Assembly: GCF_002028425.1 (NCBI RefSeq)
Contig: NZ_CP020042.1
Coordinates: 1,116,001 to 1,180,000, forward strand
From: Streptomyces katrae
GTDB taxonomy: Bacteria > Actinomycetota > Actinomycetes > Streptomycetales > Streptomycetaceae
Reading direction: 5' to 3'
Length of the DNA: 64,000 nucleotides
Below are positions 27,538-42,278 of the stretch, piece after piece. The notes under the pieces were generated by a model that saw only the letters and a list, made by a program, of their open reading frames with translations, was not told the DNA's origin and searched no databases. A program made the translations under genes and the position numbers. Position 1 is the stretch's first letter; every line of letters starts with the position of its first letter.

Positions 27538-27583
27538 GACGCGACCCGCTTGACGCGGATATCGGTATTTCCTGTTCGGACCG

Positions 27584-27730
27584 AAGGACGTAGTCCGGAT
27601 CGGCCTCACGCAGGGCACGCGGCGGGAGCTTGCAACGGCGGTCACCCTCACGGGTGATGCTGACCCACTCGACCAGGGCATGAGGCAGGTCGAGTGCGGC
27701 AGAATCCGGAACCAACACGGCTTCTATGCC
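27584..27730 (-). pseudogene. Transposase remnant, N-terminal part
   Basis: Read on the minus strand, the fragment translates as VLVPDSAALDLPHALVEWV, then TREGDRRCKLPP and ALREADPDYVL. I recognise this as the N-terminal part of a Streptomyces IS5-like transposase family. Compared with intact members it seems to lack a few residues after HALVEWV and a larger block between KLPP and ALREADPD. There is no start or continuing frame. It marks the left edge of the collagen/rhamnose island. Confidence 0.55.
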
Positions 27731-27778
27731 TCTGGGTTGAGACTTCGAACGCGGAGATGTTCGAGTTGAGCCGGCGGC

Positions 27779-27858: not shown

Positions 27859-29133
27859 TCACACCAGCAAGGGACCGCCGCAGCGTTCGGCGCCTTCCTT
27901 CATCGCGATCAGATTGGCCACCACGTAAGAGATCTGGTTCCGGGCGTGCCAGTCGGTCGGGAAGTAGGTGACCAGCCGTGAGTTCTGGAACCGGGCCTGG
28001 ATCTCCGGTACGAAGGCACGGTACTGATTGTCGGTGTAGTACCAGAACGAGTTCTCGTTGTAGTAGGCGACATGTGTCGGGTCCTGGTAGGCGCCCCGGC
28101 CGTCGGAGCTGGGAGTGAGGGTGAGGAGCATGCCGCCAGGTGCCAGCAGGCGGTACAGCTCATTGATCAGTGGAACCTTCGCGGGCACGTGTTCCAGGAA
28201 GTCCACCGCCCTGAGCAGACCGACCGAGTTGTCCGGGAGGTCCAGGGGTGCGGGCAGCGTGGCAATGATGTCGACTCCGTCCCGTGCGTGCTGGTCCACT
28301 CCCAGGTAGCCGGGCGGCTTGCGGTGCGCGGCGCCGAGGTCCAGTGCGAGCAGCCCGCGCCGCTTGGTCCAGGCGAGCGCGTTGGACTCGATGTATTTGT
28401 CGTACAGGGCGACGGTCTCGCGCTGAATGTGCGCGTTGATCTCGGTGTCGCGCTGGGTGTTGTCGGGATGCATGCGTTGCATGTACAGGCATCGCGGGAT
28501 GCAGTGGAAGTCACCGGCCTGGAAGAGACGGCACATCAAGTCCTGGTCGTCCAGCACCGTGCGGGTGGCGTCGTACCCGCCGACCTGCTCGTAGGTGTCC
28601 CTGCGGAACGCCCGCACATGGTTGGGGGCGTACCAGATGTAAGACACGTTGTGCGGCGTCGGCGCCATGGCGATCGCTTGCAGGAGACGGCGACCGTCGA
28701 CGTCCACCTCCTCGTACTGCCAGCCGTTCGCCTCGTTGAACCGCGTGTCGTCCCGGTTTCCGTCCTCGGTGATCTGAGCGGTGTGGCTGTAGACCAAGAC
28801 GGCGTCGGGATGTTCGTCGAAGGCCTTCGCCAGTTCCGCCAGGCAGTCCTTCGCCAGCAGGTCGTCGTGGTCGAGCTCGACGAGAATCTCGCCGCGTGCC
28901 ACTTCGCAGGCACGGCGTTTGGCGGCTCCAACCCCCCGGATGCCGTCCGCGACCTCCAGCCGGACACGGTCGTCGGGGCGTTCCGGCCGCCATCGCGCGC
29001 CGTTGTTGAGGAGGACGATCCACTCCCAGTCGGAGCAGGTCTGCGCTTGCAGGGTGGCGAGGCATTCGTCCAGGAAACGCGGTCGGTGGCTGGGGGTGAA
29101 GACGGAGAACCTCGGGGTCGGGGAAGAAGTCAT
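27859..29133 (-). CDS. Fusion of family 2 glycosyltransferase and SAM methyltransferase-like domain
   Basis: A 424-aa cytoplasmic protein. Residues 1-250 are a GT-A glycosyltransferase: FSVFTPSHRPRFLDECLATL, the metal-binding DHDD in EILVELDHDDLLAKD (near 95), and YEQVGGYDATRTVLDDQDLMCR near 210. Residues about 275-400 are a class I methyltransferase-like domain with LALDLGAAHRKPPGYLGVD, a motif I where the usual GCG reads GAA, then VGLLRAVDFLEHVPAK and YRLLAPGGMLLTLTPS. It overlaps the TPR stop by 4 bp (ATGA). Given its place behind the collagen gene, it may glycosylate that protein or build a methylated sugar on it. Confidence 0.88.
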   Translation of the reverse strand: MTSSPTPRFSVFTPSHRPRFLDECLATLQAQTCSDWEWIVLLNNGARWRPERPDDRVRLEVADGIRGVGAAKRRACEVARGEILVELDHDDLLAKDCLAELAKAFDEHPDAVLVYSHTAQITEDGNRDDTRFNEANGWQYEEVDVDGRRLLQAIAMAPTPHNVSYIWYAPNHVRAFRRDTYEQVGGYDATRTVLDDQDLMCRLFQAGDFHCIPRCLYMQRMHPDNTQRDTEINAHIQRETVALYDKYIESNALAWTKRRGLLALDLGAAHRKPPGYLGVDQHARDGVDIIATLPAPLDLPDNSVGLLRAVDFLEHVPAKVPLINELYRLLAPGGMLLTLTPSSDGRGAYQDPTHVAYYNENSFWYYTDNQYRAFVPEIQARFQNSRLVTYFPTDWHARNQISYVVANLIAMKEGAERCGGPLLV

Positions 29134-29774
29134 TCCGTGGTACCTACCTGAGTGGCTGTCAGTGCTGCGCTCGCGGAATCCCGGAACTCCTCCGGGACGA
29201 ACTGTAGAAGCGATGGGTCGGCGCGGACGGCGAGGCCGAAGGCTTCCCCGGCCTCTTTGTCCCGGCCCTTCCTCGCCAGGGCCCGTCCAAGGTGCAGATG
29301 GGCCGTGGCGGCCTTCGGGTCGGCCCCCACGATGTGCCGCAGGATCGCGATGGCCTCGTCGGGGTGGTTCGACTCGACCAGAAGCGCCTTGTTGTAGAGG
29401 GCCGATTCGAAATTCGGGTCGATCTTGAGGGCGTGGTCGTAAGCCGCGCGTGCGTCGGCTGTCCTGTTGTCGTGCTGGGCGATGACGCCGAGGTTGTACC
29501 AGGCGAGTTTGTCGGCGGGGTTCACGTTCAGGTCCAGGACCTGTCGGAAGCTATGCGTCGCCCCGGGGAAATCCTTGGCCTCGCCCTGTTTGATGCCTGC
29601 TTGGAGCAGTGCCTCCGCCCGCGCGGCACGCTTGGCCGCAGGTGACTCGGGCCCGGACGCAGTCGAAGACGTGCTCTTGGGGTCCCCTGTGAGCAGGTGG
29701 ACCCAACCGGTGGCCACATTGGCGACCACGACTGCCGCGGTGAGTCCGGTCCACAGTGCGATCCGCGTTTTCAC
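29130..29774 (-). CDS. Membrane-anchored TPR protein
   Basis: A 214-aa protein with an N-terminal signal anchor (RIALWTGLTAAVVVANVATG) and a Ser/Thr-rich linker. At least four tetratricopeptide repeats follow from about residue 50 to 195 (NPADKLAWYNLGVIAQHDN, ARAAYDHALKIDPNFESALY, KAATAHLHLGRALARKG, EAFGLAVRADPSL). It would place a protein-docking helical solenoid outside the membrane. It is coupled to the glycosyltransferase (ATGA overlap) and lies 149 bp behind the collagen-like gene, suggesting a role in export, assembly or glycosylation of that protein. Confidence 0.88.
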   Translation of the reverse strand: MKTRIALWTGLTAAVVVANVATGWVHLLTGDPKSTSSTASGPESPAAKRAARAEALLQAGIKQGEAKDFPGATHSFRQVLDLNVNPADKLAWYNLGVIAQHDNRTADARAAYDHALKIDPNFESALYNKALLVESNHPDEAIAILRHIVGADPKAATAHLHLGRALARKGRDKEAGEAFGLAVRADPSLLQFVPEEFRDSASAALTATQVGTTE

Positions 29775-29865
29775 AGGGGTCTACCTCGCCGATCCGGTGA
29801 CGCGACTGAGCCGGGCGGCAGGGGCAAGCACCGTCGGCTGCACGGACGATGCTCGCGGACGTCGT

Positions 29866-29901
29866 TGACCAGTGCGGCCGTGTGCGCCGGCCGGCTGGTC
29901 A
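29866..29901 (-). terminator. Hairpin between collagen-like and TPR genes
   Basis: Arms TGACCAG and CTGGTCA enclose a second CGGCCG/CGGCCG stem around a 7-nt loop, 22 bp after the collagen stop. It could terminate or attenuate, giving far more collagen than TPR/glycosyltransferase message. Confidence 0.5.
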
Positions 29902-29923
29902 GGAGAGTTCACGGTGCGGGGGT

Positions 29924-32900
29924 TCACGGCGCGCACACCGCGTAGACGGTGACTGCGCCCACGCCGTTGGAGGTGGCCTGCCAGCCAGTAGCGGGGGAAC
30001 CCCCGACAGGACGGCTGCTGAGCATCTGGAGGCCAACGACCGACGTGCTCTGGTAGCCGCCGCCGATGGCGAATGTACCAGCGGGGCAAAAGACCGTGGA
30101 TTGGCCTGTGCCGCTGTTGGAGACGACCGTGCTCTGCGCCCCGGGACTCGCGCCCTGGTTGCCTTGGAATCCCTGGTTGCCTTGGAATCCCTGAGTGCCT
30201 TGGAATCCCTGAGTGCCCTGCGCACCGGGGCCGCCCTGACTTCCCTGGGCACCGGCACCGCCCTGGAAACCCTGCGCGCCCTGCGGACCGACGTTGCCCT
30301 GGCTGCCTTGCGCGCCGGTGCTGCCCTGAACGCCTTGCGCGCCCACAGCTCCTTGGGTGCCCTGGGCACCGGTACCGCCCTGGAAACCCTGGAAACCCTG
30401 CGTGCCTTGGGTGCCCTGGGCTCCGGTGCCGCCCTGGAAGCCCTGGAACCCCTGCGCGCCCTGCGCGCCGACGTTGCCTTGGCTGCCTTGCGCGCCGGTG
30501 CTGCCCTGAACGCCCTGCGCGCCCACAGCTCCCTGGGTGCCCTGGGCACCGGTACCGCCCTGGAAACCCTGGAAACCCTGGCTGCCTTGGGTGCCCTGGG
30601 CTCCGGTGTCACCCTGGGAGCCCTGATTGCCCTGCGCGCCCTGCGCGCCGACATTGCCTTGGCTGCCTTGCGCGCCGGTGCTGCCCTGAACGCCCTGCGC
30701 GCCCACAGCTCCCTGGGTGCCCTGGGCACCGGTACCGCCCTGGAAACCCTGGAAACCCTGGCTGCCTTGGGTGCCCTGGGCTCCGGTGTCACCCTGCGAG
30801 CCCTGATTGCCCTGCGCGCCCTGCGCGCCAACGCCGCCCTGACTGCCCTGCGCACCGGCGGTGCCCTGAACGCCTTGCGCGCCTACAGCCCCTTGGGCAC
30901 CCTGGGCACCGGTACCGCCCTGGAAACCCTGGAAACCCTGGCTGCCTTGGGTGCCCTGGGCTCCGGTGTCACCCTGCGAGCCCTGATTGCCCTGCGCGCC
31001 CTGCGCGCCAACGCCGCCCTGACTGCCCTGCGCACCGGCGGTGCCCTGAACGCCTTGCGCGCCTACAGCCCCTTGGGCACCCTGGGCACCGGTACCGCCC
31101 TGGAAACCCTGGAAACCCTGGCTGCCTTGGGTGCCCTGGGCTCCGGTGTCACCCTGCGAGCCCTGATTGCCCTGATTGCCCTGCGCGCCAACGCCGCCCT
31201 GACTGCCCTGCGCACCGGCGGTGCCCTGAACGCCTTGCGCGCCCACAGCCCCTTGGGCACCCTGGGCACCGGTACCGCCCTGGAAACCCTGGAAACCCTG
31301 CGCCCCCTGGGAGCCCTGCGCTCCGGTGTCACCCTGCGAGCCCTGATTGCCCTGCGCGCCCTGCGCGCCAACGCCGCCCTGACTGCCCTGCGCACCGGCG
31401 GTGCCCTGAACGCCCTGCGCGCCCACAGCCCCTTGGCCACCCTGGGCACCAGTACCGCCCTGGAAACCCTGGAAACCCTGCGCCCCCTGGCTGCCCTGCG
31501 CGCCGGTGTCACCCTGCGAGCCCTGATTGCCCTGCGCACCCTGCGCGCCAACGCCGCCCTGACTGCCCTGCGCACCGGTGCTGCCCTGGACGCCTTGCGC
31601 GCCTACAGCCCCTTGGCCACCCTGGGCACCAGTACCGCCCTGGAAACCCTGGAAACCCTGCGCCCCCTGGGAGCCCTGCGCGCCGGTGTCACCCTGCGAG
31701 CCCTGATTGCCCTGCGCACCCTGCGCGCCTACACCGCCCTGACTGCCCTGCGCACCGGTGCTGCCCTGAACGCCCTGCGCGCCCACAGCCCCTTGGCCAC
31801 CCTGGGCACCAGTACCGCCCTGGAAACCCTGGAAACCCTGCGTGCCCTGGCTGCCCTGGCTGCCCTGTGCGCCGGTGTCGCCCTGGAAACCCTGGCTGCC
31901 TTGTGTGCCTTGTGTGCCGGTGTCGCCCTGGAACCCTTGACTGCCTTGGACTCCGGCGTCGCCCTGGCTGCCCTGGCTGCCCTGCGGGCCGATATCGCCC
32001 TGGCTTCCCTGGCTGCCGACTTCCCCCTGGCTGCCCTGGACGCCGGCTCCACCCTGGAACCCCTGGCTGCCCTGGGAACCCTGACTGCCCTGGAACCCCT
32101 GGACACCAGTTTCGCCCTGACTGCCCTGACTGCCCTGGAAACCCTGGGCGCCGGGGCTGCCCTGACTGCCCTGCGGGCCGGCTCCCGAACCACCCGGACT
32201 GCCCTGCGCACCCTGGAAACCCTGCGGACCGATACCACCCTGAGCACCCTGAACACCGGCGCCACCCTGGACACCGGGACCACCCTGGCTGCCAGCGACG
32301 CCCTGAGACCCCGGCGTGCCCATGTCGCCCTGCGCCCCCTGACTGCCCTGACTGCCGGAACCACCCTGACTTCCCTGAGCTCCGGTGCCACCCTGAATGC
32401 CCTGGCTGCCCTGGGCCCCGGTACCGCCCTGGCTCCCCTGGGTTCCGATTCCCTGGGTTCCTTGCGCACCGGTGTCGCCCTGGAACCCCTGACTGCCCTG
32501 GGTTCCTTGCGCACCGGTGTCGCCCTGGAACCCCTGGCTGCCCTGGGCTCCGGCGTCGCCTTGTGTGCCCTGGCTTCCCTGGCTGCCTGTACTGCCCTGG
32601 CTGCCCTGAGCGCCAGCGGTGCCCTGGCTGCCCTGACTTCCCTGCGTTCCCGCGTCACCCTGGCTGCCCTGGACTCCGGCACCGCCCTGGCTGCCCTGCG
32701 GCCCGACACCACCCTGGCTGCCCTGCGCGCCCTCGTCGCCCTGGCTGCCCTGGCTTCCCTGGCTGCCTGCACTGCCCTGGCTGCCCTGCGCGCCGGCGGT
32801 GCCCTGGCTGCCCTGATTGCCCTGCGGGCCGATATCGCCCTGGCTGCCCTGGACTCCGGCACCGCCCTGGCTGCCCTGCGGCCCGGTACCACCCTGGCTG

Positions 32901-35900
32901 CCCTGGGCTCCGGCGTCGCCTTGTGTGCCCTGGCTTCCCTGGCTGCCTGCACTGCCCTGGCTGCCCTGCGCGCCAGCGGTGCCCTGGCTGCCCTGACTTC
33001 CCTGCGCCCCCGCATCACCCTGGCTTCCCTGAACTCCGGCACCGCCCTGGCTACCCTGCGGCCCGACACCACCCTGGCTGCCCTGCGCGCCCTCGTCGCC
33101 CTGACTGCCCTGGCTTCCCTGGCTGCCTGCACTGCCCTGGCTGCCCTGAGCACCGGCGGTGCCCTGGCTGCCCTGACTTCCCTGCGTTCCCGCGTCACCC
33201 TGGCTGCCCTGGACTCCGGCACCGCCCTGGCTGCCCTGCGGCCCGACACCACCCTGGCTGCCCTGCGCGCCCTCGTCGCCCTGGCTGCCCTGGCTTCCCT
33301 GGCTGCCTGCACTGCCCTGGCTGCCCTGCGCGCCGGCGGTGCCCTGGCTGCCCTGATTGCCCTGCGGGCCGATATCGCCCTGGCTGCCCTGGACTCCGGC
33401 ACCGCCCTGGCTGCCCTGCGGCCCGGTACCACCCTGGCTGCCCTGGGCTCCGGCGTCGCCTTGTGTGCCCTGGCTTCCCTGGCTGCCTGCACTGCCCTGG
33501 CTGCCCTGCGCGCCAGCGGTGCCCTGGCTGCCCTGACTTCCCTGCGCCCCCGCATCACCCTGGCTTCCCTGAACTCCGGCACCGCCCTGGCTACCCTGCG
33601 GCCCGACACCACCCTGGCTGCCCTGCGCGCCCTCGTCGCCCTGACTGCCCTGACTTCCCTGGCTGCCTGCACTGCCCTGGCTGCCCTGAGCACCGGCGGT
33701 GCCCTGGCTGCCCTGACTTCCCTGCGGGCCGATATCGCCCTGGCTTCCCTGAACTCCGGCACCGCCCTGGCTACCCTGCGGCCCGACACCACCCTGGCTG
33801 CCCTGCGCGCCCTCGTCGCCCTGACTGCCCTGACTTCCCTGGCTGCCCGTACTGCCCTGGCTGCCCTGAGCACCGGCGGTGCCCTGGCTGCCCTGACTTC
33901 CCTGCGCCCCCGCATCACCCTGGCTGCCCTGGACTCCGGCACCGCCCTGGCTGCCCTGCGGCCCGGTACCGCCCTGGGTGCCCTGGGCTCCGGCGTCGCC
34001 TTGTGTGCCCTGGCTGCCCTGGGCTCCGGCGTCGCCCTGGCTGCCCTGCGGCCCGGCACCGCCCTGGCTCCCCTGGAAACCCTGCGTCCCCATATCGCCC
34101 TGGCCACCTTGGACTCCGGCGTCGCCCTGGCTGCCCTGGCTGCCCTGCGGGCCGATATCGCCCTGGCTGCCCTGGCTGCCGACTTCCCCCTGGCTACCCT
34201 GGACGCCGGCCCCTCCCTGGAACCCCTGGCTGCCCTGGGAACCCTGACTGCCCTGGAACCCCTGGACACCAGTTTCACCCTGACTGCCCTGACTGCCCTG
34301 GAAACCCTGGGCGCCGGGGCTGCCCTGACTGCCCTGCGGGCCGGCTCCCGAACCACCCGGACTACCCTGCGCACCCTGGAAACCCTGCGGACCGATACCA
34401 CCCTGAGCACCCTGCACACCGGCGCCACCCTGGACACCGGGACCACCCTGGCTGCCAGCGACGCCCTGAGACCCCGGCGTGCCCATGTCGCCCTGCGCCC
34501 CCTGACTGCCCTGACTGCCGGAACCACCCTGACTTCCCTGAGCTCCGGTGCCACCCTGAATGCCCTGGCTGCCCTGGGCTCCGGTACCGCCCTGGTTGCC
34601 CTGCGCCCCGAGACTGCCCTGGCTGCCCTGGCTGCCGGTGCCGCCTTCGGTGCCCTGGCTGCCCTGCGGTCCTGGACCGCCCTGGCTGCCCTGGCTGCCG
34701 GGACCGCCCTGGAAGCCTTGGCTGCCCTGCGCGCCCTCGCCGCCCTGGCTTCCCTGCGCCCCCGCATCGCCCTGGCTGCCCTGCACACCGGGACCGCCCT
34801 GGCTGCCCTGGCTGCCTACATCGCCCTGACTGCCCTGACTTCCCTGCGTTCCCGCGTCACCCTGGCTGCCCTGCACACCGGGACCGCCCTGGCTGCCCTG
34901 GGCTCCCGTACCACCCTGGCCGCCCTGACTTCCCTGCGCCCCCGCATCGCCCTGACTGCCCTGCGCACCCGGACCACCCTGACTGCCCTGCGCGCCCTCG
35001 TCGCCCTGACTGCCCTGACTTCCCTGCGCCCCCGCATCACCCTGACTGCCCTGCACACCCGGACCGCCCTGGCTGCCCTGGGCTCCCGTACCGCCCTGGC
35101 CGCCCTGACTTCCCTGCGCCCCGGCATCGCCCTGACTGCCCTGCGCTCCCGGACCGCCCTGGCTGCCCTGCGCGCCCTCGTCGCCCTGACTGCCCTGACT
35201 TCCCTGCGCCCCCGCATCGCCCTGGCTGCCCTGCACACCGGGACCGCCCTGGCTGCCCTGGGCTCCCGTACCACCCTGGCCGCCCTGACTTCCCTGCGCC
35301 CCGGCATCGCCCTGACTGCCCTGCACACCGGGACCGCCCTGGCTGCCCTGGCTGCCTACATCGCCCTGACTGCCCTGACTTCCCTGCGTTCCCGCGTCAC
35401 CCTGGCTGCCCTGCACACCGGGACCGCCCTGGCTGCCCTGGGCTCCCGTACCACCCTGGCCGCCCTGACTTCCCTGCGCCCCCGCATCGCCCTGACTGCC
35501 CTGCGCACCCGGACCACCCTGACTGCCCTGCGCGCCCTCGTCGCCCTGACTGCCCTGACTTCCCTGCGCCCCCGCATCACCCTGACTGCCCTGCACACCC
35601 GGACCGCCCTGGCTGCCCTGGGCTCCCGTACCGCCTTGGCCGCCCTGACTTCCCTGCGCCCCGGCGTCGCCCTGGCTGCCCTGCGCTCCGGGACCGCCCT
35701 GGCTGCCCTGGCTGCCTACATCGCCCTGACTGCCCTGACTTCCCTGCGCCCCCGCGTCACCCTGACTGCCCTGCACACCGGGACCGCCCTGGCTGCCCTG
35801 GGCGCCCGTACCACCCTGGCCGCCCTGACTTCCCTGCGCCCCCGCATCGCCCTGACTGCCCTGCGCACCCGGACCACCCTGACTGCCCTGCGCGCCCTCG

Positions 35901-38545
35901 TCGCCCTGACTGCCCTGACTTCCCTGCGCCCCCGCATCACCCTGACTGCCCTGCACACCCGGACCGCCCTGGCTGCCCTGGCTGCCGACATCGCCCTGAC
36001 TGCCTTCGCCGCCCTGTGGACCGATACCGCCCTGGCTTCCCTGCGGACCGGTGTCGCCCTGACTGCCCTGGACTCCGGCGCCCCCTTGGAACCCCTGGCT
36101 GCCCTGGAAGCCCTGGCTGCCCTGGTCCCCTTGGGCGCCGGTGTTGCCCTGGACTCCCTGGCTGCCTTGGCTGCCCTGGAATCCCTGGGTGCCGGGGCTG
36201 CCCTGACTGCCCTGCGGGCCGGCTCCCGAACCACCCGGACTGCCCTGCGCACCCTGGAAACCCTGCGGGCCGATACCGCCCTGGGCACCCTGAACACCGG
36301 CGCCACCCTGGACACCGGGACCACCCTGGGTGCCAGGGACGCCCTGAGATCCTGGCGTGCCGGCGTCGCCCTGAAAACCCTGACCGCCTTGGCTTCCCTG
36401 GGTTCCGACCCCGCCCTGATTGCCCTGATTTCCCTGCGGGCCGGCGTCTCCCTGACTGCCCTGCGAGCCCGTACTGCCCTGGTTGCCCTGCGCCCCGGCA
36501 CCGCCCTGACCGCCCTGGCTACCCTGGGCTCCGGCGGTCCCCTGGCTACCCTGCGGGCCGGCGTCACCCTGACTGCCCTGCGCCCCGAGACCGCCCTGAC
36601 TGCCCGAACCTCCCTGCGGGCCGGCATCGCCCTGACTGCCCTGGGCTCCGGTACCGCCCTGGTTGCCCTGCGCCCCGGCACCGCCCTGGCCGCCCTGGCT
36701 ACCCTGGATTCCGGCGGTCCCCTGGCTACCCTGCGGACCGGCATCACCCTGACTGCCCTGCGCCCCGAGACCGCCCTGACTGCCCGAACCTCCCTGCGCC
36801 CCAGCATCGCCCTGACTGCCCTGGGCTCCGGTACCGCCCTGGTTGCCCTGCGCCCCGGCACCGCCCTGGTTTCCTTGGCTGCCCTGGCTTCCGGCGGTCC
36901 CCTGACTTCCCTGCGGGCCGGCGTCACCCTGACTGCCCTGCGCCCCGAGACCGCCCTGACTGCCCTGGGCACCGGTACCACCCTGGCTGCCCTGACTGCC
37001 CTGGGCTCCGGTACCGCCCTGGTTGCCCTGCGCGCCGAGACCGCCCTGGTTTCCTTGGCTGCCCTGGCTTCCGGCGGTCCCCTGACTTCCCTGCGGACCG
37101 GCGCCTCCCTGACTGCCCTGCGCCCCAAGACCGCCCTGACTGCCCGAACCTCCCTGCGGGCCGGCGTCTCCCTGACTGCCCTGCGAGCCCGTACCGCCCT
37201 GGTTGCCCTGCGCGCCGAGACCGCCCTGGCTGCCCTGGCTGCCCTGGCTTCCGGCGGTCCCCTGGCTACCCTGCGGGCCGGCGTCACCCTGACTGCCCTG
37301 CGCCCCAAGACCGCCCTGACTGCCCTGGGCACCGGTACCACCCTGGCTGCCCTGACTGCCCTGGGTCCCGGTACCGCCCTGGTTGCCCTGCGCCCCGGCA
37401 CCGCCCTGGCTGCCCTGGCTGCCCTGGCTTCCGGCAGTCCCCTGACTTCCCTGCGGGCCCGCGTCACCCTGACTGCCCTGCGCCCCAAGACCGCCCTGAC
37501 TGCCCTGGGCACCGGTACCACCCTGGCTGCCCTGACTGCCCTGGGTCCCGGTACCGCCCTGGTTGCCCTGCGCCCCGGCACCGCCCTGGTTTCCTTGGCT
37601 GCCCTGGCTTCCGGCAGTCCCCTGACTTCCCTGCGGACCGGCGTCACCCTGACTGCCCTGCGCCCCAAGACCGCCCTGACTGCCCTGGGCACCGGTACCA
37701 CCCTGGCTGCCCTGACTGCCCTGGGCTCCGGTACCGCCCTGGTTGCCCTGCGCCCCGAGACCGCCCTGGTTTCCTTGGCTGCCCTGGCTTCCGGCGGCCC
37801 CCTGACTTCCCTGCGGACCGGCGCCTCCCTGACTGCCCTGCGCCCCAAGACCGCCCTGACTGCCCTGACTTCCCTGCGGGCCTGCCACACCCTGGTTGCC
37901 CTGGGACCCGGTGCCCTGAGAACCCTGACTGCCCTGGGAGCCCTGACTGCCTTGGGAGCCCTGGGACCCGGTGCCCTGACTGCCCTGCGTGCCCTGGAAT
38001 CCCTGCGTGCCTTGGAAGCCCTGGGTGCCCTGCGTGCCCTGGGGGCCCTGCGTGCCTTGGGGGCCTTGGGGGCCCTGGGGACCGGGGTGCGGGCTCGGGT
38101 GCTCATGAGGCTTGCCATTGCCCGTCCCATGCCCGCCTGGTTCGTCCCCGTGGCCACCGTCGTCACCATGGCCACCCTGATCACCATGGCCACCCTGATC
38201 ACCGTCGCCACCGTGACCACCGTCGCCACCATGGCCACCGTGATCACCGTCGCCACCATGACCACCATGACCACCATCGTCACCGTGACCACCGTCGCCA
38301 CCATGACCACCGTCGCCACCGTGACCACCGTCGTCATCGGCCCTCCGCGGTGGGCGGGGCTCGAAGTCGGCACTCAGAGCACCGTTCGGGCCTGGCACAC
38401 CGATGGAGTAATCGACGGACGTAGCTGTCGCGTTGGCTGGAGCGGCCGTTGACGAACCGAGATTGACAAGCAATCCAAGAGTTCCCGACGCCGCGAGCGT
38501 AGTGACGGCCCGGATCCACGATCTGCGAAGTGACTGACGCTTCAT
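29924..38545 (-). CDS. Giant secreted collagen-like repeat protein
   Basis: A 2873-aa protein. The ATG at 38545 follows GGGAAGG. Residues 1-40 are a signal peptide (basic MKRQSLRRSW, hydrophobic TLAASGTLGLLVNL, likely cut after APANA). A short linker is followed by a His/Asp/Gly-rich stretch (GGHGGDGGHGGD pattern) that already runs in Gly-X-Y register. From about residue 153 to 2797 there are some 880 Gly-X-Y triplets (GAQ, GSQ, GPQ, GNQ, GFQ, GGT, GDA) with Gln the main Y residue and very little Lys or Arg. Six short G-X-G breaks interrupt it. The last 75 residues are a compact non-collagen domain with two Cys (VFCPAGTFAIGGGYQ, VTVYAVCAP). It probably trimerises on the cell or spore surface. 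Other frames are also open through the repeats but lack these features. Confidence 0.92.
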   Translation of the reverse strand: MKRQSLRRSWIRAVTTLAASGTLGLLVNLGSSTAAPANATATSVDYSIGVPGPNGALSADFEPRPPRRADDDGGHGGDGGHGGDGGHGDDGGHGGHGGDGDHGGHGGDGGHGGDGDQGGHGDQGGHGDDGGHGDEPGGHGTGNGKPHEHPSPHPGPQGPQGPQGTQGPQGTQGTQGFQGTQGFQGTQGSQGTGSQGSQGSQGSQGSQGSQGTGSQGNQGVAGPQGSQGSQGGLGAQGSQGGAGPQGSQGAAGSQGSQGNQGGLGAQGNQGGTGAQGSQGSQGGTGAQGSQGGLGAQGSQGDAGPQGSQGTAGSQGSQGNQGGAGAQGNQGGTGTQGSQGSQGGTGAQGSQGGLGAQGSQGDAGPQGSQGTAGSQGSQGSQGGAGAQGNQGGTGTQGSQGSQGGTGAQGSQGGLGAQGSQGDAGPQGSQGTAGSQGSQGSQGGLGAQGNQGGTGSQGSQGDAGPQGGSGSQGGLGAQGSQGGAGPQGSQGTAGSQGSQGNQGGLGAQGNQGGTGAQGSQGSQGGTGAQGSQGGLGAQGSQGDAGPQGSQGTAGSQGSQGNQGGAGAQGNQGGTGAQGSQGDAGAQGGSGSQGGLGAQGSQGDAGPQGSQGTAGIQGSQGGQGGAGAQGNQGGTGAQGSQGDAGPQGGSGSQGGLGAQGSQGDAGPQGSQGTAGAQGSQGGQGGAGAQGNQGSTGSQGSQGDAGPQGNQGNQGGVGTQGSQGGQGFQGDAGTPGSQGVPGTQGGPGVQGGAGVQGAQGGIGPQGFQGAQGSPGGSGAGPQGSQGSPGTQGFQGSQGSQGVQGNTGAQGDQGSQGFQGSQGFQGGAGVQGSQGDTGPQGSQGGIGPQGGEGSQGDVGSQGSQGGPGVQGSQGDAGAQGSQGSQGDEGAQGSQGGPGAQGSQGDAGAQGSQGGQGGTGAQGSQGGPGVQGSQGDAGAQGSQGSQGDVGSQGSQGGPGAQGSQGDAGAQGSQGGQGGTGAQGSQGGPGVQGSQGDAGAQGSQGSQGDEGAQGSQGGPGAQGSQGDAGAQGSQGGQGGTGAQGSQGGPGVQGSQGDAGTQGSQGSQGDVGSQGSQGGPGVQGSQGDAGAQGSQGGQGGTGAQGSQGGPGVQGSQGDAGAQGSQGSQGDEGAQGSQGGPGAQGSQGDAGAQGSQGGQGGTGAQGSQGGPGVQGSQGDAGAQGSQGSQGDEGAQGSQGGPGAQGSQGDAGAQGSQGGQGGTGAQGSQGGPGVQGSQGDAGTQGSQGSQGDVGSQGSQGGPGVQGSQGDAGAQGSQGGEGAQGSQGFQGGPGSQGSQGGPGPQGSQGTEGGTGSQGSQGSLGAQGNQGGTGAQGSQGIQGGTGAQGSQGGSGSQGSQGAQGDMGTPGSQGVAGSQGGPGVQGGAGVQGAQGGIGPQGFQGAQGSPGGSGAGPQGSQGSPGAQGFQGSQGSQGETGVQGFQGSQGSQGSQGFQGGAGVQGSQGEVGSQGSQGDIGPQGSQGSQGDAGVQGGQGDMGTQGFQGSQGGAGPQGSQGDAGAQGSQGTQGDAGAQGTQGGTGPQGSQGGAGVQGSQGDAGAQGSQGSQGTAGAQGSQGSTGSQGSQGSQGDEGAQGSQGGVGPQGSQGGAGVQGSQGDIGPQGSQGSQGTAGAQGSQGSAGSQGSQGSQGDEGAQGSQGGVGPQGSQGGAGVQGSQGDAGAQGSQGSQGTAGAQGSQGSAGSQGSQGTQGDAGAQGSQGGTGPQGSQGGAGVQGSQGDIGPQGNQGSQGTAGAQGSQGSAGSQGSQGSQGDEGAQGSQGGVGPQGSQGGAGVQGSQGDAGTQGSQGSQGTAGAQGSQGSAGSQGSQGSQGDEGAQGSQGGVGPQGSQGGAGVQGSQGDAGAQGSQGSQGTAGAQGSQGSAGSQGSQGTQGDAGAQGSQGGTGPQGSQGGAGVQGSQGDIGPQGNQGSQGTAGAQGSQGSAGSQGSQGSQGDEGAQGSQGGVGPQGSQGGAGVQGSQGDAGTQGSQGSQGTAGAQGSQGSTGSQGSQGTQGDAGAQGSQGFQGDTGAQGTQGSQGFQGDTGAQGTQGIGTQGSQGGTGAQGSQGIQGGTGAQGSQGGSGSQGSQGAQGDMGTPGSQGVAGSQGGPGVQGGAGVQGAQGGIGPQGFQGAQGSPGGSGAGPQGSQGSPGAQGFQGSQGSQGETGVQGFQGSQGSQGSQGFQGGAGVQGSQGEVGSQGSQGDIGPQGSQGSQGDAGVQGSQGFQGDTGTQGTQGSQGFQGDTGAQGSQGSQGTQGFQGFQGGTGAQGGQGAVGAQGVQGSTGAQGSQGGVGAQGAQGNQGSQGDTGAQGSQGAQGFQGFQGGTGAQGGQGAVGAQGVQGSTGAQGSQGGVGAQGAQGNQGSQGDTGAQGSQGAQGFQGFQGGTGAQGGQGAVGAQGVQGTAGAQGSQGGVGAQGAQGNQGSQGDTGAQGSQGAQGFQGFQGGTGAQGAQGAVGAQGVQGTAGAQGSQGGVGAQGNQGNQGSQGDTGAQGTQGSQGFQGFQGGTGAQGAQGAVGAQGVQGTAGAQGSQGGVGAQGAQGNQGSQGDTGAQGTQGSQGFQGFQGGTGAQGAQGAVGAQGVQGTAGAQGSQGGVGAQGAQGNQGSQGDTGAQGTQGSQGFQGFQGGTGAQGTQGAVGAQGVQGSTGAQGSQGNVGAQGAQGNQGSQGDTGAQGTQGSQGFQGFQGGTGAQGTQGAVGAQGVQGSTGAQGSQGNVGAQGAQGFQGFQGGTGAQGTQGTQGFQGFQGGTGAQGTQGAVGAQGVQGSTGAQGSQGNVGPQGAQGFQGGAGAQGSQGGPGAQGTQGFQGTQGFQGNQGFQGNQGASPGAQSTVVSNSGTGQSTVFCPAGTFAIGGGYQSTSVVGLQMLSSRPVGGSPATGWQATSNGVGAVTVYAVCAP
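30361..31860 (-). repeat. Collagen repeat block A, 180-bp period
   Basis: The element CCTGGGCACCRGTACCGCCC recurs at 30361, 30541, 30721, 30901, 31081, 31261, 31441, 31621 and 31801: nine copies at exactly 180 bp (60 codons, 20 Gly-X-Y triplets). Confidence 0.9.
31948..32430 (-). repeat. Dispersed 483-bp collagen block, copy 1
   Basis: Nearly identical to 34111-34593 at a constant offset of 2163 bp, including the G-X-G break GGSGAGPQG. A shorter, more diverged copy lies near 36140-36350. Confidence 0.8.
32581..33960 (-). repeat. Collagen repeat block B, 180-bp period with 540-bp tandem duplication
   Basis: GGCTGCC(T/C)G(C/T)ACTGCCCTGG recurs at 32581, 32761, 32941, 33121, 33301, 33481, 33661 and 33841. 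Sequence 32641-33110 is identical to 33181-33650, so three modules were copied as one 540-bp unit. Confidence 0.9.
34111..34593 (-). repeat. Dispersed 483-bp collagen block, copy 2
   Basis: Second copy of the block at 31948-32430, with only scattered substitutions. Confidence 0.8.
34801..35940 (-). repeat. Collagen repeat block C, 180-bp period
   Basis: CGCCCTGACTTCCCTGCG recurs at 34921, 35101, 35281, 35461, 35641 and 35821. Sequence 34801-35090 is identical to 35341-35630 apart from at most a base at the end, again a 540-bp offset. Confidence 0.9.
36421..37860 (-). repeat. Collagen repeat block D, 180-bp period
   Basis: GGTTGCCCTGCG recurs at 36481, 36661, 36841, 37021, 37201, 37381, 37561 and 37741, eight modules of 180 bp. 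Confidence 0.9.
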
Positions 38546-38726
38546 GTCGGAACCTTCCCGCAGGCTGAAAACCGATACGCCGAGGGGGGTGACGGGTCAC
38601 ATAGGCATGCCACACCATCACGTCGGACGGCATGAATGAGCGCCCAAGCTGTTGCGCAGTCGTGCCAGCAGCAGTGTGCCGGGACCCGATTCCCCACCGA
38701 CGGTTGACAGCGAATGTCGCCGCACT

Positions 38727-39389
38727 TCATTCAATTGGCGTACGGTCCGGCATTCGGGCTGCTCGTCCTTCGCTCCTGAGGTCTGTCCGGGGCGGACGGC
38801 AAGAATAGATGCCCTCCGCCAGGCATACGTCGTACGACGGCAGCATCCCCCCCACCACCGCCTCGGCCCACGACGGTGCCGCCGCGTCCCGGGCGGAGAG
38901 CAGCGGTGCGTCGGCCGGCCACTCGATGCCCAGGTCGGGATCGAGCGGATGGACCGCGTGCTCGGCGGTCGGCCGGTACGTCGTCGAGCACAGGTACGTC
39001 AGGGTCGCGTCGTCGGTGAGCGCGCAGAAGCCATGGCCCAGCCCCTCGGGGAGACAGACCGCCCGACGCTCGATGTCGTCCAGCCGGATGCCCTCCCAAC
39101 GGCCGAAGGTGGGCGAGCCGACCCTCAGGTCGACCACCACGTCCCACACCGCACCGCGCACGCAGGTGACGTACTTGGCCTGCCCGGGTGGCACGTCGGC
39201 GAAGTGGATGCCGCGCACCACGCCCTTGGCGGACACCGAAAGATTGGCCTGGGCCAGTGATAGCGGCCTGCCCACCGCCTCCGCCAGCCGGTCGAAGCGG
39301 TACCACTCGGTGAACAGCCCGCGCTGGTCGCCGTGCACCTGCGGGACGATCTCGAACGCGCCGGCGATCGTCAACTCGCGGATTTTCAC
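38727..39389 (-). CDS. rmlC: dTDP-4-dehydrorhamnose 3,5-epimerase
   Basis: A 220-aa cupin epimerase, third step of dTDP-L-rhamnose synthesis. The catalytic His is in VVRGIHFAD, with the partner segments [12 protein letters not shown] and [12 protein letters not shown]. The N-terminus has [13 protein letters not shown]. The GTG at 39389 overlaps the rmlA stop as GTGA, fixing the start. It ends 181 bp upstream of the collagen-like gene's ATG on the same strand; that gap probably holds the collagen promoter. Confidence 0.94.
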
Positions 39390-40258
39390 CGCACACCCTC
39401 CTCGAGCAGCCCGAGAAGGTACTGGCCGTAGCCGCTGTGGAGCAGCGGTTCTGCCAGCAGGCGCAGTTGGGAGTCGCCGACGAGTCCGGACCGCCAGACC
39501 GTCTCTTCGACGCAGCCGACTTTGAGGCCCTGCCGCTCCTCGATCACCCGGACGAACTCCGAGGCCTGGACCATCGAGGCGAAGGTCCCGGTGTCCAGCC
39601 AGGCCGTGCCCCGGTCGAGGGGGGTGACGTAGAGCTCGCCGGTGTCCAGATAGGCCCGGTTGACCTCCGTGATCTCCAACTCCCCACGAGCGCTGGGGCG
39701 AAGGCCTTGGGCGATCTCCACCGCCCGGTTGTCGTAGAAGTACAGTCCGGGCACCGCGTACCTGGATTTCGGACGGGCCGGCTTCTCCTCGATGCTCAGC
39801 ACCTGGCCCAGCTCGTCGAACTCCACCACCCCGTACGCCGACGGGTCGGCGACGGGGTAGGCGAACACCCTGCCGCCCTTCATGTCGGAGTGCTGGGCGA
39901 GCCTGGTGCCGAGGCCGCTGCCGTGGAAGATGTTGTCGCCCAGGATCAGGGCGACAGGGCCGTCCCCGATGAAATCCGCACCGAGCACGAGGGCTTGCGC
40001 GATGCCCTCCGGGCGTACCTGCACCGCGTATTCAAGGCGGAGGCCCCATTGGCTGCCGTCGCCGAGCAGGCGGCGGAACTGGGGCTGGTCGCCGGCCGTG
40101 GTGACGATCAGGATTTCACTGATGCCGGCCATGACCAGGGTAGAAATAGGATAGTAAATCATCGGTTTATCGAAGACCGGCAGCAGTTGTTTGGATACCG
40201 ATCGAGTAAGCGGCCACAAGCGGGAACCAGTGCCACCGGCCAACAGAATGCCTCGCAT
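39386..40258 (-). CDS. rmlA: Glucose-1-phosphate thymidylyltransferase
   Basis: A 290-aa nucleotidyltransferase making dTDP-glucose from glucose-1-phosphate and dTTP. The signature [22 protein letters not shown] opens the protein, then [49 protein letters not shown] and the C-terminal [15 protein letters not shown]. It is divergent from rmlB across 66 bp, so both arms of the pathway share one promoter region. Several AT-rich codons near its 5' end (40140-40200) stand out from the surrounding DNA. Confidence 0.95.
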
Positions 40259-40324
40259 GGCGACAGCGTATGACTTTGATGGCCGATTCGGCCATATGCC
40301 GAGTGGCGCTAGAATCTGCCCACT

Positions 40325-41299
40325 ATGCGCATCCTGGTTACCGGCGGCGCCGGGTTTATCGGTTCCGAGTTCGTCCGCTCCGTGCTGAATGCGGACTCCG
40401 AGAGCAGAATCACCGTCCTGGACAACTTCACCTATTCGGGCGTCGGGGAAAACCTCGCGCCGGTGGCTCACCATCCCGGGTACGCCTGCGTGCGCGGTGA
40501 CATCTGCGACGTGGAGACGGTGGACGCCGTGATGCCGGGCCACGACGCGGTGGTCCACTTCGCCGCCGAGTCCCACGTCGACCGCTCGATCGATGGCGCG
40601 GCAGCGTTCGTACGGACCAACGTCACCGGCACCCAGGTGCTGCTGGATGCCGCCCGCAAGCACGGCGTCGGCCGGTTCGTGCACGTCTCCACCGACGAGG
40701 TGTACGGCTCGATCGGCAAGGGCTCATGGACGGAGGAGTCGCCGCTCGCCCCCAACTCGCCGTACTCCGCGTCAAAAGCCGGCTCCGACCTGCTGGCACT
40801 CGCCTGCCACCGCACGCACGGCCTGGACGTCGTGGTGACCCGCTGCTCCAACAACTACGGGTCCCACCAGTTCCCGGAGAAGGTCATCCCCCTCTTCACC
40901 ACGCACCTGCTCGAGGGGAAGAAGGTGCCGCTGTACGGGGACGGCGGCAACGTCCGCGACTGGCTGCACGTCTCCGACCACTGCCACGCCATCGAACTGG
41001 TGCTCCGCGGCGGCCGGGCCGGCGAGGTCTACCACATCGGCGGCGGAAGCGAGATCACGAACAAGGAGCTCACCGGCATGCTGCTCGAGGCAACCGGACA
41101 CGGCTGGGACATGGTCCGGGAGGTGCCCGACCGAAAGGGACACGACCGGCGCTACTCCCTCGACATCACCAAGATCCAACAAGAGTTGGGCTACCGGCCG
41201 CAGATCTCCTTCGCGGACGGCCTGGCCGCGACCGTCAACTGGTATCGCGAGAACCGTGCCTGGTGGGAGCCGCTGAAGAGCCGGGCGGCACTGACGTGA
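40325..41299 (+). CDS. rmlB: dTDP-glucose 4,6-dehydratase
   Basis: A 324-aa extended SDR converting dTDP-glucose to dTDP-4-keto-6-deoxyglucose. The NAD site is [13 protein letters not shown]. The catalytic segments are [12 protein letters not shown] and [12 protein letters not shown] (Tyr-X3-Lys), with the substrate region [16 protein letters not shown] and [14 protein letters not shown]. It overlaps rmlD by 4 bp. Confidence 0.96.
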
Positions 41300-42162
41300 C
41301 CCGCTGGCTGGTCACCGGCTCCGGCGGGATGCTCGGCCGCGACGTGCGGACCCTGCTGGCAGACGGGCAAGTCACCGCGCTCGATCGCGCCGCCCTTGAC
41401 ATCACCGACCCGGAGGCCGTCCGCACCGCAGTCTCCGGCCACGACGTGGTGATCAACTGCGCCGCCTGGACGGACGTCGACGGCGCCGAGGCCGCCGAGG
41501 CCACCGCCACCGCCGTCAACGGAACAGGCGTCCGCCACCTGGCTCATGCCTGCCGGGACAGCGGCGCTCGACTCCTGCATGTCTCCACCGACTACGTCCT
41601 GCCGGGGGACGGCACCGAGCCGTATTCCGAGTCGACCCCGACCGGTCCGGTCAACGCGTACGGCCGCAGCAAACTGGTCGGCGAACGGGCCGTTGCCGAA
41701 ATCCTCCCCGATACCGGCTACATCGTGCGCACCGCCTGGCTGTACGGCGAGCACGGCCAAAACTTCGTCGCTACCATGCTCGGCCTGGCCGCCCGCAGGA
41801 GCACCGTCGACGTCGTCAACGACCAGTACGGGCAGCCAACTTGGACGCACGATCTGGCTGGTCTCCTGGTGATGCTCGGCCACGCCGACAAGGCCCCGCC
41901 CGGGGTCTACCACTGCACCGCGACCGGCCACACCACCTGGTACGGCCTGGCCCGCGCGGCATACGAACTCAGCGGACTCGATCCGGACCGCATCCGCCCG
42001 ACCGCATCGGCGGCATTCCCGCGCCCTGCCCGCCGGCCCGCCTTCAGCGTCCTCGGCCACGCCCGCTGGGCCGCGGCGGGCCTGCCCGTACTCCCGCACT
42101 GGCGCACATCACTCGCCGAGGCCCTGCACCGACCCTCGTTCACCGCCCTCGTGCACCAATAG
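41296..42162 (+). CDS. rmlD: dTDP-4-dehydrorhamnose reductase
   Basis: A 288-aa reductase making dTDP-L-rhamnose. The NADPH site is VTGSGGMLGRDV; next come DVVINCAAWTDVDGAE, HVSTDYVLPGDG and NAYGRSKLVGERAV (Tyr-X3-Lys), and RTAWLYGEHGQNFV. The GTG at 41296 overlaps the rmlB stop. Its last codons run directly into the right-hand transposase remnant, which starts at the stop codon, so the extreme C-terminus may have been rewritten by that junction. Confidence 0.95.
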   Translation: MTRWLVTGSGGMLGRDVRTLLADGQVTALDRAALDITDPEAVRTAVSGHDVVINCAAWTDVDGAEAAEATATAVNGTGVRHLAHACRDSGARLLHVSTDYVLPGDGTEPYSESTPTGPVNAYGRSKLVGERAVAEILPDTGYIVRTAWLYGEHGQNFVATMLGLAARRSTVDVVNDQYGQPTWTHDLAGLLVMLGHADKAPPGVYHCTATGHTTWYGLARAAYELSGLDPDRIRPTASAAFPRPARRPAFSVLGHARWAAAGLPVLPHWRTSLAEALHRPSFTALVHQ

Positions 42163-42278
42163 CCCGTGTAGGCGCGGTCGCCGAGGACGGGGACGCCCTG
42201 GCGTTCGCAGATCCGGATCATCCGGTGGGTGCGGGCCGCGGTGAGCTCACGAGTGCGGCCCGGCAGGGCGGGCGAGAT
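42162..42278 (-). pseudogene. Transposase remnant, C-terminal part
   Basis: On the minus strand the fragment reads ISPALPGRTRELTAARTH, then RMIRICERQGVPVLGDRAY. This is the DDE-domain stretch of what appears to be the same IS5-like family as the remnant at 27584-27730 (intact members read SPALPGRTHDLTAARTH and ADRAYQGAG). Both ends are lost: it starts after a broken frame near 42278 and ends at the rmlD stop. It marks the right edge of the island. Confidence 0.7.

Follow-up and report, generated by a model that had tools for sequence, protein, structure and literature searches.

A collagen-like gene linked to a glycosyltransferase-methyltransferase and to rhamnose supply in Streptomyces katrae and other actinobacteria

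Gene content and borders of the block

The window considered here is a stretch of 64,000 nucleotides from the chromosome of Streptomyces katrae, and all positions below are counted from its first letter. Between 27859 and 42162 the minus strand carries, in the order rmlA-rmlC-collagen-TPR-GT-MT, two rhamnose genes, a very long collagen-like gene, a TPR protein gene and a gene for a glycosyltransferase-methyltransferase fusion (GT-MT), with rmlB and rmlD divergent from them. The preliminary description of this block gave the genes and their coordinates correctly, and the full rml set that it placed beside the other three genes is present, with the correction that rmlA and rmlC lie on the minus strand and rmlB and rmlD on the plus strand. 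The features are as follows.

27545-27748, minus strand: IS5-type transposase relic at the left border, N-terminal piece (tblastn; Pfam silent)
27859-29133, minus strand: GT-MT, fusion of a GT2 glycosyltransferase and a class I methyltransferase, 424 aa (Pfam PF00535, PF08241)
29130-29774, minus strand: TPR protein, 214 aa (Pfam TPR_16 and others; hydropathy)
29924-38545, minus strand: collagen-like protein, 2873 aa (translation, Pfam Collagen, composition, N-terminal hydrophobic segment)
29927-30151, minus strand: collagen C-terminal head, 75 aa (six strands; 17 sequences share two conserved Cys)
38727-39389, minus strand: rmlC, dTDP-4-dehydrorhamnose 3,5-epimerase (TIGR01221, 159.1 bits, cut-off 155.75)
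39386-40258, minus strand: rmlA, glucose-1-phosphate thymidylyltransferase (TIGR01207, 426.1 bits, cut-off 360.65; start codon)
40325-41299, plus strand: rmlB, dTDP-glucose 4,6-dehydratase (TIGR01181, 435.1 bits, cut-off 365.1)
41296-42162, plus strand: rmlD, dTDP-4-dehydrorhamnose reductase (TIGR01214, 287.4 bits, cut-off 224.05)
42150-42275, minus strand: IS5-type transposase relic at the right border, later piece of the same gene (tblastn; Pfam DDE_Tnp_4, E 0.21)

The dTDP-L-rhamnose pathway is complete in the window, all four Rml proteins scoring over their NCBIfam equivalog cut-offs, and the TPR gene overlaps the start of GT-MT by 4 bases. The Collagen family (PF01391) exceeds its Pfam cut-off on the minus strand; a plus-strand frame at 29849-38452 (2867 aa) was rejected as an antisense shadow of the collagen gene, since it is the collagen frame that has the signal-like N-terminus, the head and almost all of the Pfam matches.

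The block had been described as richer in A/T than its flanks, which holds for seven small-to-middle non-collagen genes, with a GC3 of 0.80-0.91 (0.87 or lower in six), where seven neighbouring genes have 0.88-0.97. It does not hold for the collagen gene itself, which has 73% GC. The transposase relics reported at both borders are real, and both pieces match one annotated plasmid transposase gene and many like it, while Pfam alone shows neither. By tblastn the left relic matches 72 Streptomyces plasmid records (among the matches listed, 7 of 8 are annotated as transposase), its top match overlapping the start of the CDS WSQ96608.1, 'transposase'; the right relic matches 80 plasmid records (among the matches listed, 8 at 79.5% identity, 5 of them annotated as transposase), and its match at CP108547 206111-206242 lies inside that same CDS.

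A search for a direct junction between the window's own flanks in relatives, as suggested for an island, gave no empty site: the left aldehyde dehydrogenase and the right permease are never neighbours in the listed relatives having both, and lie megabases apart or on separate contigs, the latter saying little in drafts. Some Streptomyces have an alternative locus, flanked by an aminotransferase and PEP carboxykinase (Pfam); both flanks occur in 101/101 genomes, they lie within 1.3 kb of each other in 38 of the 97 genomes with both on one contig, and the GT-MT block sits between them in two genomes (G013, G016).

A conserved core of collagen and GT-MT

The linkage of the collagen, TPR and GT-MT genes, proposed from this one locus, is borne out across actinobacteria, where they travel together in rearranged orders. 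A collagen frame, called by a 15-triplet rule, is present at 73 of 80 GT-MT loci, whose hosts are Streptomyces, Kitasatospora, Frankia, Micromonospora and MAGs including Acidimicrobiaceae and Cellulomonadaceae. By group the counts are 46/51 in the Streptomycetaceae-type group (which takes in one record titled Saccharothrix), 14/14 in Micromonosporaceae, 7/8 in Frankia and 6/7 in others. Among the seven loci without a counted frame, three (L016, L048, L073) end near the gene at a contig end, two (L027, L035) have short or broken collagen frames and two (L049, L088) have none. Collagen frames were found in 0/20 random 20-kb regions and in 0/20 rmlB regions without GT-MT (19 from genomes without GT-MT and one, L136, from a genome with GT-MT elsewhere), and a chance neighbourhood was rejected on this basis; since gene orders vary between groups, the link is also not that of one frozen stretch. 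Of the 40 control regions, one (L148) contains five consecutive Gly-X-Gln codons, too few for the rule.

TPR genes occur at 56/80 GT-MT loci (37/51 of the Streptomycetaceae-type, 0/8 in Frankia), and 11/80 have a further GT2-TPR protein laid out like SgtA. The core of the module is the collagen gene and GT-MT (with TPR). The rml genes were rejected as its core, because all four are found at only 20 of the 80 loci and the cassette also occurs alone elsewhere.

The window collagen consists of a probable signal peptide, a Gly/His/Asp-rich stretch, 894 Gly-X-Y triplets and the C-terminal head. Gln occupies 69% of its Y positions, and every one of the 37 Pro at X belongs to a GPQ triplet, so there is no GPT among the 894. 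Linked collagens (73 loci) have a median of 68% Gln at Y against 2% in 33 unlinked Streptomyces frames (p 1e-16), and form a distinct Gln-Y subfamily. Ser and Thr together make up at most 3% of X/Y positions in 10/41 complete linked collagens, which disfavours them as a general acceptor in Gly-X-Y. The head is present at 61/80 linked loci, of which 16 had gone into building the profile, against 2/63 unlinked ones, as searched with unfiltered HMMER on the last 260 residues; default filters gave 45/80 in these long repeats. Its fold is predicted to be PCSK9/resistin-like, and as a profile search found no sequence homology to PCSK9 or resistin the likeness is one of fold only.

The GT-MT family is strongly conserved in actinobacteria, and the sources consulted name it only 'glycosyltransferase' or similar. 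Its GT2 half exceeds the PF00535 cut-off and has a predicted GT-A fold, with acidic D88, D90 and D91 (DxDD) invariant over 30 sequences. The putative methyltransferase half, whose structure modelled poorly, scores 23.8 bits with Methyltransf_11 (cut-off 21.2), and G267, G278 and D280, which we take to be SAM-site residues, are invariant over 30 sequences. The TPR protein has one N-terminal hydrophobic segment, at about residues 5-30.

Comparison with known systems

Accounts of the Bacillus cereus group tie the collagen-like gene for BclA to a rhamnose cluster operon and describe an exosporium nap in which a trimeric collagen stalk bears a glycan containing rhamnose (PMC10761439, PMC10050317, PMC6947953, PMC4750369). 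The window is like this system in having its collagen gene beside rhamnose genes, as do the related loci with a full set. It is unlike it in the Gln rather than Thr at Y of linked collagens, the fusion of glycosyltransferase to methyltransferase, the TPR protein, the N-terminal signal-like segment and the actinobacterial hosts, and its head, with its predicted PCSK9/resistin-like fold, may differ from the jelly roll described for BclA (PMC4750369). The glycan chemistry of BclA, on which the preliminary description drew, does not carry over to a window protein with 0 GPT in 894 triplets and to a family in which four complete collagens have no Ser or Thr in Gly-X-Y; judged from repeat composition, a BclA-style Thr linkage is unlikely across linked collagens in general.

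In Clostridioides difficile, SgtA of the SgtA-BclA3 pair is reported to glycosylate collagen-repeat peptides, GT2 and TPR being joined in a single chain that adds GlcNAc to Thr or Ser (PMC7157674). Here too a GT2 gene lies near a collagen gene and TPRs belong to the system, but the window GT2 is fused to a methyltransferase, the TPR protein is separate and there is a tie to rhamnose. The GT half is modelled with the GT-A fold of RmlT and SpsA, neither of which has, to our knowledge, a methyltransferase domain. Its best structural match is chondroitin polymerase, and SpsA (dTDP-bound) and RmlT (dTDP-rhamnose-bound) are among the other GT2 folds that it resembles; going by entry titles, SpsA was solved with dTDP and RmlT with dTDP-rhamnose, and the entries include a ribitol-phosphate complex.

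A proposed modified fibre and its alternatives

We propose, with a probability of roughly 58%, that this block produces a very long, secreted collagen-like fibre and decorates it with a glycan based on rhamnose. In the steps that we infer, RmlA-D would provide dTDP-L-rhamnose, the GT2 half of a cytoplasmic GT-MT would transfer the sugar to the collagen chain, or to a glycan that the chain bears, and the methyltransferase half would O-methylate the transferred sugar. The membrane-anchored TPR protein may keep hold of the chain, or of the enzyme, while the chain is modified and exported. The signal peptide would send the chain out of the cell, and the six-stranded head may aid its trimerisation. 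By hydropathy GT-MT lacks a membrane segment; as a cytoplasmic enzyme it would have to act before collagen export.

It is possible, if doubtful, that the product of GT-MT is a wall or capsular polysaccharide containing rhamnose, to which the fibre sticks or by which it is anchored, the protein itself being unglycosylated. The nearest folds to the GT half include the polysaccharide and teichoic-acid enzymes K4CP, heparosan synthase, TarS and RmlT (RmlT acts on teichoic acid), and the collagens without Ser or Thr in Gly-X-Y, the lack of a sortase motif at the window collagen's C-terminus (inspected by eye) and a DUF2079 membrane protein at 5 loci agree with this. However, GT-MT has no membrane segment, and no polysaccharide polymerase, flippase or lipid-carrier transferase appears in 19 Pfam-scanned non-module neighbour families, a sample from the 28 most recurrent, with 4/19 giving no Pfam match and such genes possible elsewhere in the genome.

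Modification of the fibre with rhamnose must also be weighed against the view, which we think unlikely, of unrelated neighbours: a free-standing rml cassette would have been transposed beside collagen and GT-MT, and GT-MT would use another donor. In 10/20 rmlB regions fetched (L122-L131, other Streptomyces) the window's cassette (38.8-42.15 kb) stands without a collagen gene, the IS5-type relics stand at both block borders and 60/80 loci are without the full set. Rhamnose genes in the same place in relatives lacking collagen had been named beforehand as counting against a joint island; such genes were found without collagen, but not in the same place, as homology of L122-L131 to the window ends at the cassette edges. 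Against unrelated neighbours, many other loci have rmlC and rmlB on either side of the collagen gene, and rmlD is over cut-off in 17/17 GT-MT genomes against 77/182 others (Fisher p 1.3e-6, shared ancestry ignored). It is likewise present in 35/35 tested genomes whose fetched GT-MT locus is without rmlD ('elsewhere' meaning outside the 11-21 kb fetched, some of these loci ending at a contig edge), the Streptomycetaceae-type subset giving 20/20 against 77/182 (p 1.4e-7, shared ancestry again ignored). The window rmlD is the only one over cut-off in the source genome. Rhamnose supply tracks the collagen/GT-MT module.

The window's RmlC, with that of a close relative (L012), groups with free-standing cassettes, apart from other collagen-linked RmlC, and one clade for all collagen-linked RmlC is rejected (AU p 6e-5), which makes at least two separate acquisitions of an rml set by the module probable. 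For RmlB and RmlD one clade with the other linked sets is not rejected (AU 0.35 and 0.60), and RmlA of the window and the other linked sets already form one side of a branch (support 94); 'twice' thus rests on RmlC and gene layout. The rml genes are decaying in close relatives. In L012 rmlA is truncated, rmlC shortened and the collagen gene also split by an IS element; L013, L014 and L088 keep short rmlC relics, and in L011 nothing is left but DNA similarity that extends 66 bp into the 3' end of rmlC.

That the block encodes a spore-surface (exospore coat) fibre resembling the exosporium nap seems improbable to us: most hosts found belong to sporulating genera (Streptomyces, Kitasatospora, Frankia, Micromonospora), but the module is found as well in MAGs, among them Acidimicrobiaceae and Cellulomonadaceae, and we do not know these two lineages as spore formers. 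We give very little credence to Y-position Gln as the acceptor, with GT-MT N-rhamnosylating or methylating Gln and so stabilising a proline-poor collagen, a modification that, if true, would replace hydroxyproline or glycosylated Thr as collagen stabiliser.

Full-text literature searches, in a library with few subscription journals or preprints and judged by title and abstract, found no description of the collagen/GT-MT module. That related bacteria also keep its core together suggests a type of sugar-coated bacterial fibre not described before which, if true, would be another bacterial collagen-glycosylation system, beyond Firmicutes and with other repeat chemistry. The model gives a testable statement on how proline-poor collagens are stabilised and would assign a function to a conserved actinobacterial GT-MT family, and collagens of this length that lack hydroxyproline and come with a modifying enzyme of their own would be of interest as materials.

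Layout and borders of the block

The preliminary description of this region reported a collagen-like gene, a TPR gene and a glycosyltransferase-methyltransferase fusion (GT-MT) on one strand beside a full dTDP-L-rhamnose (rml) set, and all seven genes are present; rmlC and rmlA share the strand of those three, with rmlB and rmlD lying opposite. All four rml genes score over their NCBIfam equivalog cut-offs.

27545-27748, minus: transposase relic, left border (matches transposases in 72 plasmid records)
27859-29133, minus: GT2-methyltransferase fusion, 424 residues
29130-29774, minus: TPR protein
29924-38545, minus: collagen-like protein, 2873 residues
38727-39389, minus: rmlC
39386-40258, minus: rmlA
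40325-41299, plus: rmlB
41296-42162, plus: rmlD
42150-42275, minus: transposase relic, right border (matches transposases in 80 plasmid records)

A plus-strand frame of equal length opposite the collagen gene was dismissed as a shadow. The chromosome carrying the window is 8.06 Mb long and Streptomyces-like, judged by its closest named relatives. The rmlD gene is the only copy over cut-off in the genome; a second full rmlB over cut-off is at C3:6744-7697, on a contig of just 203 kb.

The proposed transposase relics were not revealed by Pfam by itself, but are borne out by the plasmid records, whose hosts are all Streptomyces except one Kitasatospora. In CP108547 a single gene annotated as transposase (205694-206443) takes both hits, the left relic at 205661-205873 and the right at 206111-206242, so the two are from one IS family. 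Given their order in the window, the pieces are two copies, each truncated and pointing the same way, and not a single transposase gene split by the block. The higher A/T content reported for the block holds in part: GC3 of its genes other than collagen is 0.80-0.91 versus 0.88-0.97 in the seven neighbours compared.

Conservation of the collagen module

Scanning genome contigs for GT-MT gave 105 relatives, of which 80 were retained for counts. The earlier interpretation, of a possible BclA-like glycosylated surface or spore-coat fibre whose sugar donor, transferase and scaffold travel together, is partly supported: transferase and scaffold do keep company, with a collagen frame (at least 15 uninterrupted triplets) at 73/80 loci and TPR at 56/80, whereas the full rml set occurs at just 20/80 and at least one rml match at 31/80. 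Gene order varies between loci: collagen-TPR-GT-MT on a single strand (the window, some Streptomyces and Kitasatospora, Micromonosporaceae); TPR-GT-MT opposed to rmlD-rmlB-collagen-rmlC-rmlA; rmlDBCA with a divergent collagen gene (L029, L063, L084, L087); GT-MT opposed to collagen without rml; and, in Frankia, collagen-GT-MT with no TPR match. Collagen or rml was found in none of 20 random 20-kb regions, and collagen in none of 20 rmlB regions without GT-MT (19 from GT-MT-free genomes; L136 is from G079, which has GT-MT elsewhere). GT-MT, TPR and rml were found in none of 34 collagen regions not linked to GT-MT, which is description more than test, these being hand-picked from Pfam collagen matches minus those known to adjoin GT-MT. 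That collagen, GT-MT and TPR form one functional unit is well supported.

In Micromonospora parva a single contig bears two GT-MT/collagen/TPR loci (L070 and L090), and L064, from a Frankiaceae MAG, combines a pair of GT-MT genes with one collagen frame. Streptomyces genomes vary at the aminotransferase/PEP-carboxykinase junction (L041, 7982-14443), where 195 bp to 19 kb separate the two genes in the 97 genomes having both on one contig.

The linked collagens

Collagens beside GT-MT are a separate kind from unlinked ones. Median Gln at the Y position of Gly-X-Y triplets is 68% in 73 linked loci versus 2% in 33 unlinked frames (Mann-Whitney p 1e-16; a frame was missing from one of the 34 regions, and some unlinked frames may be shadows), and Gln at Y reaches at least 33% in 71/73 versus 1/33, the sole exception being L201 (40%). 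Thirty further collagen matches, many of them shadow frames, have 0-17% except L182 (42%), where the collagen adjoins a GT-MT gene. In bacterial collagens, as given in a review, Thr is the main Y residue, at 48% in Gram-positives (PMC8968730). The C-terminal head domain occurs at 61/80 linked loci (16 of the 61 belong to the head profile) versus 2/63 unlinked ones (L182 removed, being linked), and was not found at most Micromonosporaceae loci. Ser plus Thr at X/Y is at most 3% in 10/41 complete linked collagens, and zero in four of those, so Ser/Thr of the repeat is unlikely to be the general acceptor.

Nine unlinked Streptomyces frames (L192, L205, L206, L207, L210, L211, L214, L215, L218) have 55-95% Thr at Y, nearer BclA-like chemistry; rml, TPR and GT-MT were not found within the 20 kb fetched around them.

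Rhamnose genes and the proposed mechanism

The divergent rmlCA/BD layout is shared by the window and 10/20 fetched rmlB regions (L122-L131), whose DNA matches the window only at 38.8 to 42.15 kb. RmlC of the window and L012 clusters with RmlC of these regions, and the tree test rejects placing it in one clade with the remaining collagen-linked RmlC (AU p 6e-5); RmlB and RmlD are undecided on this and RmlA leans the opposite way to RmlC. The DNA match and RmlC grouping suggest that the block is probably two joined cassettes and that the module probably gained an rml link on two or more occasions. Among close relatives the rml side decays: rmlA is truncated and rmlC shortened in L012, short rmlC relics remain in L013 and L014, and in L011 the match covers 66 bp at the 3' end of rmlC; in L088 GT-MT is partial and collagen and TPR are without match. 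In L012 (S. canus V4I20) an IS3-like element (transposase gene 6628-7491) splits the collagen gene beside the decayed rmlA/rmlC.

Across 199 Streptomyces genomes, GT-MT is found in 17 (81-100% identity over almost full length) and rmlD over cut-off in 94: 17/17 with GT-MT versus 77/182 without (p 1.3e-6, shared ancestry ignored). In 7/17 rmlD lies apart from GT-MT, and these alone give p 0.003 (shared ancestry ignored); in G182 the distance is just about 10 kb. A close rmlB gives a weaker contrast (17/17 versus 148/182, p 0.036, shared ancestry ignored). Where the GT-MT locus has no rmlD match, rmlD over cut-off was present in 35/35 genomes tested, sampled from 57 named loci.

The two nearest known systems, the Bacillus rhamnose cluster with collagens (as outlined in PMC10761439) and SgtA-BclA3 (as outlined in PMC7157674), resemble the module in logic. 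The window protein, unlike BclA, does not show the GPT acceptor, and the block lacks the one-chain GT2-TPR layout of SgtA. An extra GT2 protein near GT-MT at 11/80 loci (L030, L032, L038, L040, L047, L054, L057, L058, L060, L062, L089), with C-terminal TPRs (Pfam, L054 copy), has a layout like C. difficile SgtA. In the most likely mechanism, to which we give a probability of roughly 0.6, dTDP-rhamnose would be the donor for GT-MT and the collagen or its glycan the acceptor.
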